Below are positions 5,391 through 49,300 of a stretch of 64,000 nucleotides of DNA, piece by piece. Position 1 is the first letter of the stretch. Each line of letters starts with the position of its first letter. The stretch comes from Symbiodinium sp. CCMP2592. Taxonomy: Eukaryota; Sar; Dinophyceae; Suessiales; Symbiodiniaceae. Position numbers and translations under genes: made by a program. Where the stretch lies: positions 839,865-903,864 of the forward strand of contig CAJNDT010000946.1 of assembly GCA_905221615.1 (NCBI GenBank), written 5' to 3'. Under the pieces are notes generated by a model, which saw only the letters and a program-made list of their open reading frames with translations, was not told the origin of the DNA and did not search any database.

Positions 5391-5944
5391 AAGTCCCTGT
5401 ACAGGTACGTTGGGGCCTAGGTATATACTATTTGGGCACATGAACCCTTTTCGGTCCACCATCATGCAACCAAAAGCTGCACCTTTGCCATTCTGCTGAA
5501 GGCTTTAAATAGATTTTCTTGGTTTTGCAAAAGGTACCATTGCAGAGTGTTACAAAGCTTTAAACTTTCGATTTAGGATTAACGGGTCTCCGTGGGCGTT
5601 TGTCTGGCTTCGGCTTTGTCGTCAGCGCATGGGGGCGTCCGCGTACCTAGAAGGTAGATACGCCGGCTCAACGTGCACATGCTTTCATGTAACAGCCGTT
5701 CAGGATTTCGCGTTCAAACGTTAAGGCCCAACATTTTGCGGGCCATGGTTTAGGGTTCTGCTGCCGCATTCACCATTTTGCATTCTTCCAATCACATCAC
5801 GTATCTTCGAGAAACAATACGGTCTCCATAAGGAGTATTCTTGTTGCAGGGTCCCCAGCGCCACCGTAAGAAGACGTGGGTCCTGACACGGAAACTGCCA
5901 TGTTTGAAGCTTACCGTCATTGTCCGCATGCTCCTTAATAAACC

Positions 5945-6055
5945 TAGGGGTGCTTAGAAATAATTTTTAATTTTTGGTTATTATAATCCCTAAGAAACAG
6001 CTAATATTTTAATCTAGCTAGGGTTCTAAGTTCAGTATAGATATCTCTATACCCG
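5945..6055 (+). mobile_element. foldback/introner element, family 18
   Basis: Starts AGGGGTGCTTAGAAATAATT, contains ATAATCCCTAAGAAACAGCT, ends GTTCTAAGTTCAGTATAG. The same start, middle and end form the last intron of the ankyrin gene (33316-33491), so this is an independent copy of a known intron-making sequence. Confidence 0.75.
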
Positions 6056-10640: not shown

Positions 10641-10746
10641 GTGAAGGGGGGGGGGTTGGAGGCTTATGATATCCGGCTGCTATACTGCAGGAGATAGGTT
10701 CCACCATGTGTACGCCCCAAGTTGCCCAACTATGGCCAGGGTTACC

Positions 10747-29868: not shown

Positions 29869-32800
29869 GTGGGCAGAAGGGTGCAGATCTTAGGGTTTCA
29901 GGTTTTCGGGTTTTCGGGTTTAGGGTTTGAGGGGTTTATAGGGTTTTATGGCTTTTTGGGTTTTTGGGTTTTTGAGTTGTTGGGTTTAGGGGTTTAGCGC
30001 CTGGGGGGCGGTGTAGCTGCAGCTCGTGTTGTCGGTGTCTCCCTCTTCTGTGTGGGTTTTGGCCCACGTGCGTGAACTAATGGACACGGTTTTCCACTCA
30101 GGGTTTAGCACTTGGTGTTCCATAGGGACCCTTAGGGGGGGCGTAGGGGGCCGTAAGGCGTGTAATGAGGACTTAATACCCCTACCCCCCTCCCGCTAAC
30201 CCCTCTAAGGGTCCCTATGAGTTTTCATAGGGTCTAGCGTTTGAGAATTGGGGCTTTCGGGATCAGGGTTCAGGGTTGAGAGCTTTCGGGTTGCCGCGCT
30301 ACTGGGAGGTTCATGGTTAGTTTTAAGTGGAGTTATAAGTAGGGCATCCACAATTATAACCCATATTAGGGGACTTATAACTCCACTTATATCTACCCAT
30401 GAACCTCCAAGTAGGATTGGGGTTCCGATCCGAAGAGACTCGACCATCTCGCAGTCAGGAGAGTTCTCCTTGGGTTTTAGAAGGCTTTTACGATGGTCGT
30501 TGGGAGGTGTGTTTGTGTGTTGGTGTGTGCTTGTTTAACCGCTTTCTATGAGCGTTATTTGCGTCCGGTGTTTGACGGGTTTTACGGTCAGGTGCCGACC
30601 GTGTTGTTTGGGCTTGCGGTCTTTTGAACGAGACACGAGCGGAGCAATAGATGTGACACGCTCATTTGCTCACCTAAGACTCTAAGTATATACACAGCAC
30701 CTACTTCGGGGTCTAAAGTCTGTAAACGGTACCTACTTTGGGCTATTTGGCGCCTTCGGGTCACCTTTCCCCGAGATTTCTTCCAACCCGACCTGAGCAG
30801 GACTGACGACACTGCGCAGCCCACGGTCGCAGCCCTGAAAAGAAGGCTGTATCTCGGCCGCCGAGGGGTTTCAGCGTGCAGGGCTGAGGAACCGGAGGGT
30901 GTAGAGTTTGGGGGTTGCTTTATTCGGGTTTAGCTAGCTTTCCCTTGGGATCAGAATACTACAAAAGCTTTATCTAGGGGCCCAAGAGCAATTAGTACAC
31001 GAGACCTTAGAGAACTCGGGTTGGAGGGGTTTAGGGTTGGGAACCCTCAACCCCCTAGGGTTTAGTCAAGAGTTTGGGCTTGAAGGGCTCCCTGCTTGAG
31101 CTACTCTTGCTTTTATTATATAGGAGCATAAATTACTGTAGAATTGGGTTTTGGGCTCCCTCATGGTATAGTTATAGTAAGGAACCCTAAAATAGTATTG
31201 GTAGTTACTTAGGCCCTATATTGTTCCTGAGTTTACACCCTAGATACCTTAACGATGATCCCCTCAATTATGGACTGCAACTGTAAACGCTGAACTGTTT
31301 GGGTAGCTCAGGCAATGTCTCTGTGGATACTCGCGCTTCCGACAGCGCCTTCTCGGCGACGATGGGGTTCTGACTGAGAATTCACCGCTGGACACGCTGT
31401 CCCTGAGCTGTGGTTTATTTGAGAGTTGAAAGTTCGGGGGTCTAAGGTTCATAGTGGAGTCTGGGTGTAGCGTTTAGGGTTCAGTGGCATGCAACAGGCT
31501 TGTTATAAGTGGTCTGCGATATAGTATATATATATATATAGAGAAAGAGAGAGATCATGCTTTCATTTCGGGTCATTCTTTGGGCTTTACATTTCGGACT
31601 TTTCATGCTTGTCACTTCTATTTCGCAGCTTCAAGACCTAAAGAAGCCGGAATCCATGCACATGTACACGCTTGCAGGACTAAGTGGCTAGCTAGACCCT
31701 TAGCTGTTACCGCAGCTCTAGTTTGGGGGGGGGGTATCTTATTTTCTTGGGATATTACAACATTCATAGAGAGGGTTAGGTCTCATGCAGGGGATTAATT
31801 ATCCACCACGACAAACGGAGGCTCTTTTGATTCAGGGACTCTGTCGTATTGAAAGCCTGTGCAGTTATTGGGCTGTGATCCAGCTGGGTAGCGACTTAAG
31901 TACATACTGCAAAAAGGGGGTTTTCCGAAAATAGGGGACCCTAATCTAGAAGCCCTAAACAGTAGGATCCTTATTATAGGGACCCCGAAAAAAGGTACCC
32001 CTAACTTTCTGAAAATTTCTTTTCCCGGCCCACAATCCAAGTGATCAAGTCTCAAAGCTCCGGGTCAGGTCGGATGTTCAGTTTGTCCTCGTGAACTTCC
32101 AGCCGCCTTTGGCGAGTGATTGCCTCGCACTTGTGGCCGCAGCAAAGGACAACAACTTGAAGGACCTGGAGGCTGGCCATCAAGCCCTGTCTCTAAGGGT
32201 CAAAGAGACCCAATTAGTCGGTACTCGGGTTCAGGATAGTAGTTATGTAGGCTACTGTTTTGGAGAGTATATGATAATCAGGTACCTGGACCCTTAGGGT
32301 ATAGGGATCCAGTTACGTTTATATAGTAGGTTACGAGGGTATATGATATATGGTTAGTAACCTGCTAATTCTTTGGGTAACTGGAGCCCTAGGGAAGTGG
32401 GGTAAGTCCTCTGGGTTCAAGCGTGTCGGGTTTCTTCTGAGCTTAAGGGATTCGTGAACACTGAACACTATGAATCTGCATCAATCTGACGGGGAAGCGA
32501 CGCTTTTGCCAGAACAAAAGTTCACTTGCTATGCAGGTCTTGCTGCAACGACCTCTGAATCCCAATGTGATGGATGCGAACGGGGAGGTCCCCTTGGGCG
32601 GGGCAGCTTGCTTCGGGAATCCAGAAGCAGCCCTCCTGCTGCTTGAAGCGAGTGCAGACGTAGAGACGCCCATGAGCGACGGCGCGACACCACTGGTGAT
32701 CGCATCCCAGAATGGCTATGTGGATTTCGTGCAGCTGCTGCTGGAGGCAAGGGCTGACCCAAACCGGGCACTTCCGCAACAAGGTGCCTCTGCACTGCAC

Positions 32801-33683
32801 ATAGCCTGCCAAAATGGTCATCTTGAAGTGGCACGCCTGCTGCTGGATGTGGGTGCTGAAGTGAACAAAACCATGAATGATGGAACAGCCGCACTGTTTC
32901 TGGCTTCTCAGCAAGGATATCTGGAGATTGTTCAGATGCTGCTACAGCAGGCTGCTGATGCTAACATGGTTAACGAAAGCATGGGGTCTAGTCTCGTGGT
33001 GGCTTGCGAAGACGGGCATCTCGACGTAGCTCGAACATTACTTGAAGCTCGTGCTGACCAAAGAGCTACGGATCCTTGAAGACGAGATGAACCCCAAAGC
33101 GGTTTCAGGTTCATATACCAGGACCATATAGGGATTCATAGTATTAGGGTATAGGGCCCCTACTTTTTAAGGGTCATTTGGTCCTTAAGGATGATGGCAC
33201 CACGCCACTCTTTGTTGCAGCCCAGAATGGACACCTGGCTGTAGCCAGTCTCATGCTTCAGTTTGGGGCCAACATCGAGCTGCCCATCGATGATGGGGCG
33301 ACACCTCTTCTCGTCGCATCTTAGGGGTACTTAGAAATAGTTGTTAATCGTTCAACTGGTTTTTTATAATCCCTAAGAAACAGCTAAAATTATATATATA
33401 TATATATATATATTGAACTGATCATTGTGTACTCCCTAAGCAACAGCTGAAACTGTAATTTTCGCTAGCGGTTTACGTAAGTTCAGTATAGGCATCTTGG
33501 AACGGCCATTCGGAGGTCGCTCGGGTGCTGCTGGATGCACGCGCTGACATCAATGTCTCGCAGGATACTGGTGCCACTCCTTTACATGCTGCCTGCACGA
33601 ACTGCCACGGATCGGTCATAAAGCTTTTGTTGGAGGCCAGAGCGGATGTGCATGGATACTTGCGAGGCTCGGGGATGTGGTGA
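29801..33683 (+). CDS. ubiquitin-like domain / ankyrin-repeat protein, 7 exons
   Basis: Likely a cytosolic or nuclear protein-binding scaffold; partners unknown. Exons by eye: 29801-29868, about 30751-30845 (5' edge unresolved), 31312-31404, 32069-32171, 32537-33070, 33190-33315, 33492-33683 (TGA). Together about 400 residues. Exons 1-4 encode a ubiquitin-like N-terminus: MLRIRWASGTELAAIA, then TVAALKRR, then YSRFRQRLLGDDGVLTENSP and DVQFVLVNFQPP. Exons 5-7 encode about eight ankyrin repeats with normal TPL..A, NGH..VA..LL and AD.N features. Phases agree at every junction from exon 2 onward. Donors are GC (introns 2, 4, 6) and GA (3, 5). This domain pairing is frequent in dinoflagellates. The family is secure; exact ends of exons 1 and 2 are not. 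Confidence 0.85.
30121..30219. mobile_element. foldback element, family 11 (CATAGGGACCCTTAGGGG)
   Basis: Left CATAGGGACCCTTAGGGGGG, right CCCCTCTAAGGGTCCCTATG; lies in ankyrin intron 1. Second copy at 43738. Confidence 0.92.
30301..30413. mobile_element. foldback element, family 10 (TGGAGGTTCATG)
   Basis: GGGAGGTTCATGGTTAGTTT then AAGTGGAGTTATAAGTAG; right CTTATAACTCCACTTATATC then TACCCATGAACCTCC. In ankyrin intron 1. Second copy at 47477. Confidence 0.92.
30751..30845 (+). CDS. ankyrin gene exon 2 (ubiquitin-like core)
   Basis: Frame RLRVTFPRDFFQPDLSRTDD then TAQPTVAALKRR; the PTVAALKRRL segment matches the conserved helix of the domain. A GC donor (AAAAGAAG/GCTGTA) at 30846 gives phase 2, which fits exon 3. 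The 5' edge is uncertain: sequence upstream (30686-30750) repeats 6948-7025 and may be an element end. Confidence 0.65.
31312..31404 (+). CDS. ankyrin gene exon 3
   Basis: Starts after GGTAGCTCAG; codes QCLCGYSRFRQRLLGDDGVL then TENSPLDTLSL. SRFRQRLL is a signature of this domain. A GA donor (CTGTCCCT/GAGCTG) joins in phase to exon 4 and restores LSLSDVQFVLV. Confidence 0.75.
31916..32022. mobile_element. foldback element, family 5, in ankyrin intron 3
   Basis: GGGGGTTTTCCGAAAATAGG .. TTATTATAGGGACCCC .. ACTTTCTGAAAATTTC; right arm diverged. Confidence 0.7.
32069..32171 (+). CDS. ankyrin gene exon 4
   Basis: Starts after CGGGTCAG; codes SDVQFVLVNFQPPLASDCLA then LVAAAKDNNLKDLE, the end of the ubiquitin-like fold and first ankyrin helix. 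GC donor (CTGGAG/GCTGGC). Confidence 0.8.
32192..32300 (-). mobile_element. foldback element, family 2, in ankyrin intron 4
   Basis: TCTAAGGGTC .. GGAGAGTATATGATAATCAG then GTACCTGGACCCTTAGGG: inverted orientation of the 26008 copy. Starts 20 bp after the donor. Confidence 0.85.
32301..32398. mobile_element. GGTTAC-type foldback in ankyrin intron 4
   Basis: GATCCAGTTACGTTTATATA then GTAGGTTAC; right CCTGCTAATTCTTTGGGTAA then CTGGAGCCCTAG. Back-to-back with the family-2 element. Related copies near 22438 and 59340. Confidence 0.75.
32537..33070 (+). CDS. ankyrin gene exon 5 (main repeat block)
   Basis: 178 codons after TGCTATGCAG, about five ankyrin repeats (..SDGATPLVIASQNGYVDFVQ.., ..ASALHIACQNGHLEVARLLL..). 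Ends ..ARADQRAT at a GA donor; the next exon resumes with DDGTTPLF, giving a repeat one residue shorter than its neighbours, so this junction may be off by a codon. Confidence 0.85.
33190..33315 (+). CDS. ankyrin gene exon 6
   Basis: 42 codons: DDGTTPLFVAAQNGHLAVAS .. ANIELPIDDGATPLLV. Ends at a GC donor whose GC is the first base pair of the target duplication GCATCTT. Confidence 0.8.
33316..33491 (+). mobile_element. introner forming ankyrin intron 6 (family 18)
   Basis: The element AGGGGTACTTAGAAATAGTT .. GTAAGTTCAGTATAG occupies 33323-33491 and is flanked by GCATCTT at 33316-33322 and 33492-33498. Removing one GCATCTT plus the element restores an uninterrupted ankyrin repeat (TPLLVASWNGH). 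The interior carries an (AT)n expansion at about 33394-33412. Confidence 0.92.
33492..33683 (+). CDS. ankyrin gene exon 7 and stop
   Basis: ASWNGHSEVARVLLDARADI .. ATPLHAACTNCHGSVIKLLL, then a short tail HGYLRGSGMW and TGA. A GT at 33652 could instead be a donor to a further exon, so the C-terminus is less sure than the repeats. Confidence 0.75.
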   Translation, partial: ASWNGHSEVARVLLDARADINVSQDTGATPLHAACTNCHGSVIKLLLEARADVHGYLRGSGMW

Positions 33684-35925: not shown

Positions 35926-36395
35926 CAGCCAGGGAATTCGGCTTCGGGGTGTAACGGTTTATATAGGATTGAGGGTTAGGAGCTACCCTCGATTTAGTTG
36001 GAGTGTAAGGGGTTTGGGTGTAGGATTTAAGGCTCAAGGGTTTGGGCTTAAGGTTCTCTTCCGGGTTTAGGGTTCGGCGCAGGCTTGAACTTTTCTGCGG
36101 TGTCTTGAGCAGTATATTTTCCGCCTGTGGCAGCGGGTGTGGTTAGAGTTTTGTATTTGTTCGGTTTGTCTGAGTCTGGCTTTGCTCAGGCAGCCATCAG
36201 GACATGTTGTGAAAGCTTCGCCAGATAATGAAATCCCCCACCACTGCAAGCCGTCACACTAGAAGCTAAGGAACACAAGATGCATATGCGGTTTTGTGCT
36301 CGTGTTGCAACAAGTCTCCCAACTTCCCAAACATGAACCAAAGGGTCTAGCCATCGGATCACGCAAATAGTGGTTTGGTGAAGGACTGGCACGAG

Positions 36396-36764
36396 GCAGC
36401 GACAGCAGCAGCAGCAGCAGCACCGCCGCCACCACCACCGCTGCCACTGCCACTGCCACTGCCACTGCCACTGCCATTGCGACTGCCGCTGCCACTGCCA
36501 CTACTACTACCACTGCCACTACCACTACCACTACCACTACCACTACCACTACCACTACCACTACCACTACCACTACAACTACAACTACAACTACAACTAC
36601 AACTACAACTACAACTACAACAGCAGCAGCAGCGACAACAACAGCAGCAACAGCCACAGCAACCATAACGACACCACCACCACCACCACCACCACCACCA
36701 CCACCACCACCACCACCACCACCACCACCACCACCACCACCACCACCACCACCACCACCACCAC
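36396..36764. repeat. compound trinucleotide microsatellite
   Basis: About 370 bp: (CAG)n, (CCACTG)n, (CCACTA)n, (CAACTA)n, (CAG/CAA)n and about 30 CAC units. The long open frames here on both strands (Leu/Pro, poly-Val/poly-Gly) are by-products of stop-free repeats and not annotated as genes. Confidence 0.93.
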
Positions 36765-37029
36765 CGTCTTCGTCGTCATTGTCATCACCTTGCATCACCC
36801 TTTTCTGTCAAGATAACCAGTCATAGGAACTATGGCAGGCACAGAAGCATAAGGATCCCTATAAACCCTAAACCCGAACCGCGGCCAGAAATGAAGGCAC
36901 CGGTTTAGGGTTTAGGGTTTGAAGTTTAGGGTTTCGAAAATCAGCCACAGGGTGGGCCTTGGGCTAGTTAATATTTCCCTTCCGAATCCTGAACCTGCTA
37001 AAACCTGAGTCCTCGAGCAGCTGTCGTGA

Positions 37030-43369: not shown

Positions 43370-46300
43370 TCCTTAATCAAAGGTCATAATCTTAAGGCCT
43401 CTATGACTTAAGGTATATATTCCTTAATCCAAGGTTTATCGAGTATTGGGCTTTAGCCCTAAACCCTGAAGGTCTTGTGCGCTCCAGAGGTAGAGCCTTC
43501 TGATCTCCATTGGAGTTCTTTGTAAATTCCCTAAGGGTCCAAGTACCTAATTATCATATACTCTTTCCAAATAGTAACCTACATAACTACTACCCTAAAC
43601 CCAAGTACCCAATTATTCTTTTGACCCTTAGGGATTTGCCATGTTTAATCGTGGCGCATTCGGGTTTGCTTGGGGGTGTAGGTCTTGGGCTTTTGTTGGG
43701 TTTGGGGCCGGGGACTCGGGCTCAACGGGCAGGGTTTATCATAGGGACCCTTAGGGGGTAGGGGATAATACAACCGGAAAAAGGCCCTATTAAGTCCGTA
43801 TTCTGCGTATTACGGCCCCTAACCCCCTCCCCCCTACCCCCCTAAGAGTCCTTATGATTTGAGGCTGAATTCCTGTATATTCCTATACTGAGAAACCGAG
43901 GTAAATACAGCACAGGCCTACTTCCGGTCAACCCCAGCAAACCCGACAAGAACCTTATCAAACATTTTTCATATTTGATGAAGCCCAGAAAGAATCCGTA
44001 GGTATTCAAAACCTTCCATCTTGGCTGCGAGCCTTGGAAATTGATGATTGTCACTCCGCGCCAGGGCGTCGTGGCCGCAGACATTTCCCTGCCAGTTGTC
44101 AGCCGCGAATGCGGTGAGGCCGGGTTAAGACTCATGTCGGGTCCCAAACCCCCGAAACTTAGGGTTTAGAGTTTCAGGTTTAGGGTCTCTTAACCCTACA
44201 CCCTGAAACCCCAAGCGCTGCACGAGCTCAAGCCGCGAAGCCCTAAACCTGAAAAATCCCAAACGCCGCCACCCTGAACAGAACAACCATGACCTCGATC
44301 ACTTTGAATCCTGGATTCTGCACTTCACCAGAAGACCGACTACAAGCCCAGTCGTTGATCTGTGGAACCTGAACCCACCTTGAGATCCCAGAACCCTTTA
44401 ACTAAGGAATATACCTTAAGTCATAACATTAAGCCCCGTGTAGTTTAAGGTATATGCCTTAATTCAGGGATACTGGGGTCTCTGGGCAAGTTCCTAGCTA
44501 AACCTCTGTATGCCGAAGGCCTTCAAAAAGCTTCAGCGGCAGCTGCGGGAGTCAGCGTACAGTTTTCCCATCAACAGCAGTGGCTCGGCTTGGCTGATAT
44601 ATCATAGCACTGAAAACCTGCCCAAACCTTGCGCCCTAAACCCTAAGCCCTAGGCCCCCGCAACATTGAACTAAACCCCGTGAGCCTTCATACACGCCTC
44701 AATTTCTAGGACACAATAAGCGTTGATGTGCCTGTGCAGGCCTGGGCCTATGCAGTATGTACACTGGCCCTCAAGTCACTGCAGAGGAAGGTCGTTTATT
44801 GTCATATAGTCTGAGTACATACTACAAAGGTGCATTGACCACAAAGAATGCCTCGGACTGCCACTGACGGTGTGACTTGTGTTTTGGGTGCAAGGTTTCA
44901 AACTCAAAAGGAAACCCTGGAAAACCTTCCATCGAGTCCTAGAAAGCCCCAATGAAGCCAAAGTGGTAGGTACGTGGATAGTAGTGTCCCAGTAGGTACT
45001 TGTGCGGGTCTGTAGAAGAGCTTGCGAGAAAGAGGCTTGCAGACCTTTCTTCGGTCCGGTGCACTGAGCACTCCATGCATTCCGGGGTCAAGACTTACCA
45101 ACTCAACTTGTTTTCCCGGGTCTAAGGAGATGCAATGGGGATTGGGGTGGTGGTATACTGTCTAAGAGTTCCAGATGGACACCGTAAACCCTGAAGCCTA
45201 AGCCATTATTATCATGATTGCTACTGTTATTGTTATACAAGTCTAAGTAGAAGAACTAGTATTAGTACACTAGTACTGAGTACTGGTAGTAGTATTAGTA
45301 TTAGTATGAGTATTATTAAACTTGCTACTCTGTTGCTCACACCGAGCCCTTGGGCTCCAACCACACGTGCTCGCGATGGTTTAGCCTCATCTGGTCCAGC
45401 CGCCGCAGCAGATTTGTATCCACTGAAGCCATGAGGGTCCATATATAGCACTACCTAGAGGCTCATACCCTGCCCCTCTTTTGGGATACCTAGTTCTATG
45501 GTTAGGATCTGTTATATAGAATAACTGGGTACCACCTAGAGGCTCATACCCTGCCCCTCTTTTGGGATACCTAGTTCTATGGTTAGGATCTGTTATATAG
45601 AATAACTGGGTACCACCTAGAGGCTCATACCCTGCCCCTCTTTTGGGATACCTAGTTCTATGGTTAGGATCTGTTATATAGAATAACTGGGTACCTTAAA
45701 AAAAGGTAAGGTATGAGCGTCTAGGTGTAGGGGAATCAGGTCCCCAAAACTACTGGGGTCTAAAACTATATTGGTCGTATACCTGGACCCTCTGGGACAG
45801 CTAGGTTTGCGGTTTAGCGCTCAGGGCCTCAAGCCTCAAGCCCTTAATACACAGTTTAGGGTTTGGGGTTACTGCTTTACAGTCTAGGGCTGAAGAGTTT
45901 GGGGCTGGCCACTGTCCGACGGCAACAAGTATCCATAGTAGGCGCCTTGTCTAGATTTTGTGTTTTTATACGTCAGCTACAGGGGAGGGTAAGCCACAAA
46001 ATGACCCAAGACATAAGAAGTCATGTGCAACAGGGCGCTTGTTGAGGGTGATCATTTCCTTAAGGGGCAGGATGCATGCTTCGGCCGGCGAAACAGGGGC
46101 TTACAGTTTCCCAGTCTCCGTACTTTCAACTTTCAATCTCTTCAGCTTCAACCCTCCCCCTGCACCCCTTTAAATGCTGTACCCGATACCCTAAACCACA
46201 ACTCTAAACTCTGACCCTGCGCGCCCCCTAAGCCACCCGACCAAGATAATTCTGCTGTCTTCGTGGTCAACCACAAGAGCAACCAAGGCCCGGAGAGAGT

Positions 46301-49300
46301 TTCAGACGGAGCCTTTAAGCCGTTTCGGTCCAATATAGGAACCCGATCAGGGATCCTTGGGTCTTTTTAAGGTTCTTTGTCTGCACCCTAGTATTTTGGG
46401 GTTATAGGGCCAGGGTTTCTTAATCAGGTTCCTACATTAGGCTTTAGGGCCTTACAACCACCAAGACCTTCGATTGCACTATGGGTGCTCTAGGGCCTCA
46501 ATAGTCTTTTACAATGTCTTGGTCTAACTTACGGCATGCTAGGGTATACCTGCAGACCCCAAACCCTTCAAAATGGTAGGTTAGGGCCCCTTAACTATAT
46601 AGGGTATACCTTAACCCTGAATAACCTACCTTTTTAGGGTTCCCTATGATGATTTCCTTATATACATCCTTTAAAAAGGTCGGTTCTTCCGGGTCAAGGT
46701 GGCCCTTCACAAAGTCGTTTTCGGATCGCCCGGTTCGTACTCCTATAGGGCTTCAAGGGTACTACAAGGTAGTTACCGAAAATTGGGGGTCCCTAAAATA
46801 AGGATCCTGCTATGTAGGGTACTGATAATAGGGGCCGCCATTTTCGGAAGCCCCCACAAGAGCTTGTACAGCTAGAGACCGCTGACTGTTAGCGAACAAA
46901 GGAGCTCCAAACCTCGAAAAGGCCCTGCAAGCCCTACCTTGGGATCCGAAAAGCTCTATACTGCTTTAAGGCTTATATACCCTCTAATATGAAGGGGTCA
47001 TAACCTACCTTTTTGTAAGGTTTGGGGATACAGAATCCTAAACCTTAGAAGACTTAAGTTAAAGAAGCACGGGGAAAATGATCTTAAACCCAAACCCCTG
47101 AACCCTGAACTTTACACCCTGAACCCACAAGGAATCTGAAACCCAGGCTTGAGGGTTAACGGCTGAGGGTTGAGGGACTATCGGGTTTGGGGTTTAGGGT
47201 TCAGCTCTGAACCCTGAAGGTGTCACAAAAGACAGCTCCAAGCTGTAAGCCCCAAAGCCCCCTAAACGCCAAACGGGAAAGTCGAAGCCCTGAATGCAGA
47301 GGGCGGCTCTAATGACACCGGCTGAGACCTGTACCCTAAACCCTGGACTCTGAAGGCCTAAAGCCTTGTGGAAACCCTAAGGCACTGACAAGCTGACTCC
47401 AGCGACCCTAAGCGCTAAACCCGAAACACCAAATCCACAACCCTGAGAGATTTACAGAGTCCTTGCAAAGCCTTCTGCTTGGAGGTTCAGGTGTAAATCT
47501 AAGTGGAGCTAGAAGTAGGGTAACTATACTTATACCCCATATTAGAGGACTTATAACTCCATTTATAACTACCCATGAACCTCCAAGTAGACTCCTTAAA
47601 GTCCTAAGCCCAGAAAGGCGGCTCCAATGACGCCGGCTGAAAGGAAGCCTAAACCCTATTCTGATGATTGAGGCCCTCATATAAAGCCCTAGAACCCCCC
47701 TAAATATAAAGCCCTAGAACCCTCAAGGCCCTTCATATAAGGCCCTAGAACCCCCTATAAAGCCCTAGAACCCCTTAGGCCCTGACCCCCTAAGGCCCTT
47801 GTAGGATCCTTAGAGTCTTAAGCCCAGAAACCTAAGCCTAAGCCCAGAACCCAGAGACTCCAATATCCCTTAATTAAGGAATATTCCTTAAATTATAGTA
47901 GGATCCCTTATATGATTTAAGGAATATTCCTTAAATTATAGTAGGATCCCTTTATGATTTAAGGATATTCCTTAATTATAGTAGGATATATTTTCCTTAA
48001 ATTATAGTAGGATCCCTTATATGATTTAAGGAATATTCCTTAAATTCTAGTAGGATCCCTTAAAATGATTTAAGGAATATTCCTTAAATTATAGTAGGAT
48101 CCCTTATATGATTTAGGAATATTCCTTAAATTATAGTAGGATCCCTTATATGATTTAAGGAATATTACGGAATATTCCTTAAATTATAGTAGGATCCCTT
48201 ATATGATTTAAGGAATATTCCTTAAATTATAGTAGGATCCCTTATATGATTTAAGGAATATTCCTTAAATTATAGTAGGATCCCTTATATGATTTAAGGA
48301 ATATTCCTTAAATTATAGTAGGATCCCTTATATGATTTAAGGACTATTCCTTAATTAAGGGATATTGGAGTCTCTGGGAAAGGCGGCTCCAATGACACCG
48401 GCTGGCTCATCGGCTCCTCCGGCGACCTAAGCGCTCCCTTCGGCCGAGCGGAAGACTCTTCGCAGGCGCCAAAAAAGCGTAAAAGGGCTCTATATGGACT
48501 CACATACATATGGGGGTTCCTTTAAGGGGGATCTATAAGGGGTCCTTTACAGGGATCTATAGGGCTTAGGGATCTAAGGACTCACATATTACGGCTTTTG
48601 GGCCCAAAGACCGTGCTATATAAGGTTTTGGGGCTATTTTGATCCCCAGGGAAAGCGTAAGGAACTCGGGTTTCAGAGGATTTTTCGGGTGTGTGTAGGG
48701 GTGTAGGGTTTAATGGTTGAGTGTAAAAGCATTGAGGGTTTCGGAGCTTTTTAAGTAGATTTAGGGCTTTAGCTTAAGGTTCGGGGAGAAAGGGAAAGAG
48801 ACGTGCAGGGTTTTACGGGGTTTAGCGTTCTAGGATTTGGAGTTCCGGGCTGGAATTTTGGGTTCTTAGCAGTTTATGGTTTCGAGGTCGACTTAGGAAA
48901 CACCTGATCTTCAATCCCACCAATGACGGATCGCGCATAAACCTTAAACCCTAAACCCCTAAAAGCCCCTGTAAACTCTAAACCCGTAACCCCCCCCCCC
49001 TGTAAACTCTAAACTCTTAACCCGTACCCCCCAAACTCTCAAACTCCGATCCAGTTTTTCAGACCTCTACACCCTAAACCCCAACTCAGCTCTTGATTCC
49101 TTCGCATGAAGAGAGGGGCCGGACATATTTCACGAAAGTATCCCTAAGGGCTCCTTATTCCAACTCGACTAGAATATACCCCCCAAGCCCTATTCGAATC
49201 ACTGAGTTGGCCAACATAGTGTCCAACTTTTGCAGTAGCCCTTATCATAGAAGCCTCTGAAACCAAATGAGGCCTCATATTACATTCCACCTATAAGTCC

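Follow-up and report, generated by a model that had tools for sequence, protein, structure and literature searches.

The window, as the whole stretch of DNA analysed is called here, comprises 64,000 nucleotides of Symbiodinium sp. CCMP2592 (G000:C946:839865-903864), and the genome searched is the 1.098-Gb assembly of 5,383 contigs. The locus of interest is an ankyrin gene whose exons are separated by predicted introns, two of which contain short dispersed elements flanked by duplications, while a third holds a nested short repeat (Table 1). With the predicted introns removed, the joined protein matches Ank_2 with an E value of 1.2e-55, and the joined frame has its best Ank match across the junction of intron 3 (residues 49-78 against profile positions 1-30). 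One short repeat with inverted ends is present in seven copies in the window, at positions 10743, 24498, 26007, 32193, 34144, 42464, and 43529. Local tandem and palindromic repeats lie at 47850-48378 and 45450-45695, and a long simple triplet-like repeat run at 36259-36826 creates large, probably spurious, open reading frames on both strands. With as many as 3 mismatches allowed, the window contains no copy of the dinoflagellate spliced-leader 21-mer, and no match in an RNA-family search reached the gathering score.

Table 1. Positions in the window of the ankyrin gene, its predicted introns, and the associated elements.
Feature	Position	Strand	Remarks
Element copy 2	5943..6040	+	98 bp, same strand as the ankyrin copy; 7.1% diverged from consensus
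Predicted intron 1, GC-AG	32172..32536	+	365 nt; by-eye sequence reading and downstream reading frame
Short repeat of the third family, inside intron 1	32193..32299	-	Inverted ends CTAAGGGTC...GACCCTTAG
Ankyrin exon	32537..33070	+	Pfam Ank_2, E 1.9e-36 for 32537-33073
Predicted intron 2, GA-AG	33071..33189	+	119 nt; excision would join QRAT to DDGTTPL in frame
Second-family element, CCTTAAGGACG...GGTCCTTCAGG	33074..33190	+	117 bp; duplication AT at 33072-33073 and 33191-33192
Ankyrin exon flanked by introns 2 and 3	33190..33315	+	Pfam Ank_4, E 3.5e-8
Predicted intron 3, GC-AG	33316..33491	+	176 nt; excision would restore an ankyrin repeat
Left copy of 4-bp duplication, GCAT	33316..33319	+	GC is the proposed 5' splice site; exact match to 33492-33495
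Element copy 1, CTTAGGGG...CAGTATAG	33320..33491	+	172 bp; internal duplicated segment and TA run
Right copy of duplication, GCAT	33492..33495	+	Start of the following exon
Ankyrin exon after intron 3	33492..33680	+	Pfam Ank, E 1.2e-11; open until stop at 33681

The prediction of intron 3 is well supported by the sequence. Excision of 33316-33491 gives TPLLVASWNGH, a canonical ankyrin repeat, as the preliminary description of this DNA had claimed, and retention reads LLVAS followed by a stop. Pairing GT, GC, or GA donors at 33280-33339 with AG acceptors at 33465-33509 left the frame open in five cases; all of these end at 33491, and only the donor at 33316 rebuilds the full repeat. A GT donor at 33313, paired with the 33491 acceptor, likewise leaves the frame open at the cost of one valine, so the repeat fold was used to choose the exact donor of intron 3. 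Another AG, in TTCAG 5 nt before the 33491 acceptor, may compete but breaks the frame. At the homologous point, a further repeat of this gene (from 32678) carries no interruption, and TCGCATC is found in both. A genome search with the joined exons for a DNA-similar paralogue returned a single candidate, the gene itself, and thus no paralogous empty site. The ends of the element appear to coincide with the intron borders of the gene, as is typical of an introner. The start of the element (33325-33342) encodes GYLEIV in the ankyrin frame, resembling an ankyrin motif elsewhere in the gene; this likeness was taken as coincidence because the same 5' end is found genome-wide.

The exact 20-base 5' end of the element in intron 3 occurs at 1,942 places in the genome, compared with none for the reversed pattern. 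A similarity search with the element gave 61 matching stretches, the window's own counted (40 scored places of 1,120 candidates), and the likeness among copies is far above chance. A 23-base core of the element had no match in one scan of bacterial and archaeal genomes, and viral-contig matches at nine loci, which share only a 17-mer with it, were taken as chance. Two samples of copies were compared. The first consisted of 39 fetched loci and the two window copies, with both ends recognised in 38 copies and with L020 and L022 representing one duplicated place. The second was picked by the 5' end alone; 96 loci were fetched, 67 were kept, and 29 were dropped as their 3' end did not match the end pattern (altered, cut or, in L160, masked). 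Family comparison established the consensus ends CTTAGGGG...CAGTATAG, and the commonest length in the second sample, chosen by its 5' end, is 99 bp (30/67). Against this 99-bp consensus, the copy in the ankyrin gene is identical at 61/66 aligned bases in its 5' half and at 49/56 in its 3' half (gaps left out), and its greater length of 172 bp comprises a TA run and a segment duplicated internally. Locus L018 resembles this copy in carrying an internal duplication of the same middle segment.

An exact 4-bp target duplication flanks 25 of the 38 copies in the first sample (24 of 37 independent places) and 48 of the 67 in the second. Flank identity by position at exactly 4 bp is 82 and 87% in the two samples, respectively, compared with 17-38% in every other register examined; when the register was kept but fewer or more bases were compared, identity was 55-87%. 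Since agreement between the flanks spans exactly 4 bp across the family, GCAT is the duplication in the ankyrin gene. The earlier proposal that the intron equals one element plus one duplication holds (172 bp plus 4 bp, 176 nt in total), with a duplication of 4 rather than 7 bp, and the suggested check for duplications of 7-8 bp showed duplications in many of the sampled copies, again of 4 bp. The second copy that had been placed at 5945-6055 is indeed present, with corrected borders (Table 1) and without a duplication (1 of 4 bases alike). The target of the 48 exact-duplication sites in the second sample is roughly symmetrical, C-TATW-G. A strand-specific motif, NNAT, obtained from 24 sites of the first sample was rejected because the query held GCAT before the element and enriched such copies, whereas the 48 sites picked by the 5' end show the symmetrical target. 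The element ends form an imperfect inverted repeat, in which 11 of 17 positions pair and ACTTAGAA is exact; this signal is weak (shuffle p 0.003).

MITEs are non-autonomous DNA transposons. The element resembles them in its shortness, high copy number, inverted ends (a weak feature here), and fixed duplication length of 4 bp, and no coding capacity was seen in it. It is unlike them in a strong strand coherence along contigs, which is absent from two other short families of the genome. One of these is the second family, one copy of which makes up intron 2 and which is unrelated to the element in intron 3. A search with this second family scored 40 of 1,601 candidates, and among 21 copies, that of the window counted, 19 have an exact 2-bp duplication.

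Taken as a whole, these observations are best explained by the insertion of a MITE-like element into an ankyrin exon and its splicing as a GC-AG intron, a reading that we regard as highly probable. The element would be a MITE-like, non-autonomous DNA transposon of about 99 bp with weak 17-bp inverted ends and 4-bp duplications, moved by a transposase supplied in trans. One copy would have entered the ankyrin exon on the sense strand after GCAT, leading to the duplication of GCAT. For the spliceosome, the left duplication would provide the donor, GC, and the element tip the acceptor, TATAG, so that the mRNA would be unchanged. The same origin of the two splice sites, in a mobile element inserted in an exon, had been put forward in the preliminary description and agrees with the present analysis. 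The family, its ends, the duplication length, the exact restoration of the frame, and the stop on retention are the observed part of this explanation. The second family appears to have made intron 2 in the same way, which supports it.

The preliminary description implied that the whole family is an introner family, which is unsupported on present evidence. When the flanks of copies were joined, 42 of 64 were open in sense and 38 of 64 in antisense, compared with 55.6% in random controls (p 0.13 and 0.62, respectively). Six other long joined frames, searched in sense only, had no Pfam match at E 0.01, whereas the ankyrin frame matches. Single flank frames were taken from 38 loci, leaving out L022 as the duplicate of L020. 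The 150 longest of 549 sense frames of at least 60 amino acids matched three Pfam families, DUF4336 (8.7e-27), HSP90 (4.1e-4), and MGC-24 (1.2e-4), and the 150 longest of 571 antisense frames matched none. The flank frame behind the DUF4336 match was not pinpointed among 10 frames tried, nor by composition ranking. Shorter frames chosen by a rough coding-like score (150 of 986 sense and 150 of 1,036 antisense) gave no Pfam match on either strand. Because the sampled flanks show no clear coding excess, most copies of the family are probably not introns, and the family probably lies for the most part in non-coding DNA, with the ankyrin copy as one of its uncommon insertions into an exon. That most copies are introns after all, their coding signal missed in unrecognised lineage-specific genes, is unlikely. 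The orientation of the element, which follows long blocks and probably genes as described below, fits such a family, and the 42 of 64 open sense flanks leave room for a minority of exonic copies; on the other hand, the excess is not significant, sense and antisense are alike (p 0.58), the first sample is more open in antisense (25 versus 21 of 35), and none of the six other long frames has a Pfam match.

Less probable still is that an ordinary transposon disrupted the gene and no splicing occurs. Frame restoration alone is no proof of splicing, because the original frame always returns when an element is removed together with one duplication, and frame-exact excision is thus expected of any duplication-bearing insertion; the lack of clear coding flanks in the sampled copies and the early stop in the element also suit this explanation, and the ankyrin gene could be a decaying gene. 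However, a GC donor and an AG acceptor stand exactly at the required borders, although only 14 of the 48 exact duplications of the second sample start with GA, GT, or GC, and just one with GC. Usable borders are present at both of the independent insertions in this one gene, and the ankyrin exons remain open although the element has diverged from its consensus at 5/66 and 7/56 aligned bases. Finally, GCATCTT does occur twice as first noted, at 33316-33322 and 33492-33498 with GTTCAGTATAG just before the second copy, but the idea that these 7 bp are the target duplication is refuted at the family level and retains a negligible probability, as 36 of 38 aligned copies in the first sample start with CTT, the flank match ends at 4 bp, and another ankyrin repeat of the gene reads GCATCC; CTT belongs to the element as its own first bases and matches the exon by chance.

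The strand of the copies along contigs was also compared. Among the matches listed (the first 100 of 1,942 places), neighbouring copies lie on the same strand in 57 of 60 pairs, with same-strand runs of 14/14 places over 0.96 Mb on contig C80 and 9/9 over 1.56 Mb on C1. Both window copies are on the plus strand. When the listed places and both window copies were pooled (177 distinct places), agreement was seen in 56 of 58 adjacent pairs within 300 kb and in 7 of 10 beyond that distance. As controls, adjacent pairs were on the same strand in 21 of 55 cases for the intron 2 family (Fisher p 1.7e-11) and in 14 of 32 for the third short-repeat family (Fisher p 5.9e-8).

Dinoflagellate genes can occur in long unidirectional blocks (PMC8110479), and motif markers were applied to locate genes near the copies. 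An ankyrin motif, searched twice (1,677 and 108 places; 43 and 0 for the reversed controls), and a kinase motif (138 places; 8 for the reversed control) were used, taking the first 100 places listed of each and one place per cluster. Among the matches listed, markers within 120 kb of the nearest known copy agree with it in strand on four of four contigs (C36 at 6 kb, C1 at 35 kb, C1247 at 82 kb, and C3124 at 118 kb), the ankyrin gene itself besides. Among those farther away, three of eight agree (C169 at 278 kb, C435 at 628 kb, and C1 at 1.3 Mb), and the others disagree (C125 at 274 kb, C1868 at 439 kb, C36 at 751 kb, C169 at 941 kb, and C14 at 1.3 Mb). An EF-hand motif was dropped as a marker because its reversed control was nearly equal in count (67 versus 80 places); by eye, its places agree with the element strand on C113 (17 kb) and C924 (279 kb) and disagree on C5207 (842 kb) and C4556 (1.5 Mb). 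Recurrence of an ankyrin motif pair at about 521 bp in G000:C1:2873050-2877022, and of the EF-hand motif at about 1.35 kb in G000:C5320:249120-257260, suggests tandem arrays. When flanks were read in the direction of the element, T exceeded A in 27 of 38 loci (p 3.4e-4), and there was no skew of G over C (21/38, p 0.70).

On this sparse gene evidence, the copies probably point along transcription. Selection for splicing in exons is not a ready explanation of the orientation, because few copies appear exonic; replication direction may lie behind the strand coherence. We tentatively consider it possible that the element is oriented by transcription, inserting or surviving almost only in sense across unidirectional gene blocks, coding and non-coding DNA alike, unlike the two other short elements. 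Among the titles and abstract openings listed, subscription papers excepted, none dealt with strand coherence outside genes for an introner or MITE family.

The splice-site logic that the preliminary description presented as directly visible in this copy had already been published for Symbiodinium microadriaticum (PMC9860276, Fig. 2B), whose introners are described as co-opting the 5' splice site from a 4-bp duplication (Gozashti et al. 2022). Introner family 1 of that species, compared here by its published description, has the same 4-bp duplications, inverted ends, element-borne 3' splice site, and duplication-derived 5' splice site; it differs in that the sampled copies of the present family lack clear coding flanks. 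For Polarella glacialis, 12,253 recent introner introns are given in PMC11453091, and in this and other dinoflagellates (Roy et al. 2023, as cited there) several transposon families create introns in one genome, as is also proposed here. The introner elements described for Amoebophrya (PMC7789003) likewise combine inverted repeats with direct repeats at the edges of the intron. They differ in their direct repeats of 3-5 nt, inverted repeats of 8-20 nt, and widely varying non-canonical borders, whereas the predicted borders here are GC-AG and GA-AG.

The route of intron gain, with a gene-derived start and an element-derived end, is thus already described in dinoflagellates, and the orientation result is less expected. 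Intron 3 is a clean sequence-level example of this known route, and within one gene two unrelated families, which differ in duplication length, have each given rise to an intron independently. The orientation result weighs more than the intron itself, and the idea of orientation by transcription is testable with existing dinoflagellate annotations. If a DNA transposon does follow transcription across non-coding DNA, this would help to explain an intron maker without selection gene by gene, and its sense bias would pre-adapt the element to yield spliceable introns whenever an exon is struck.
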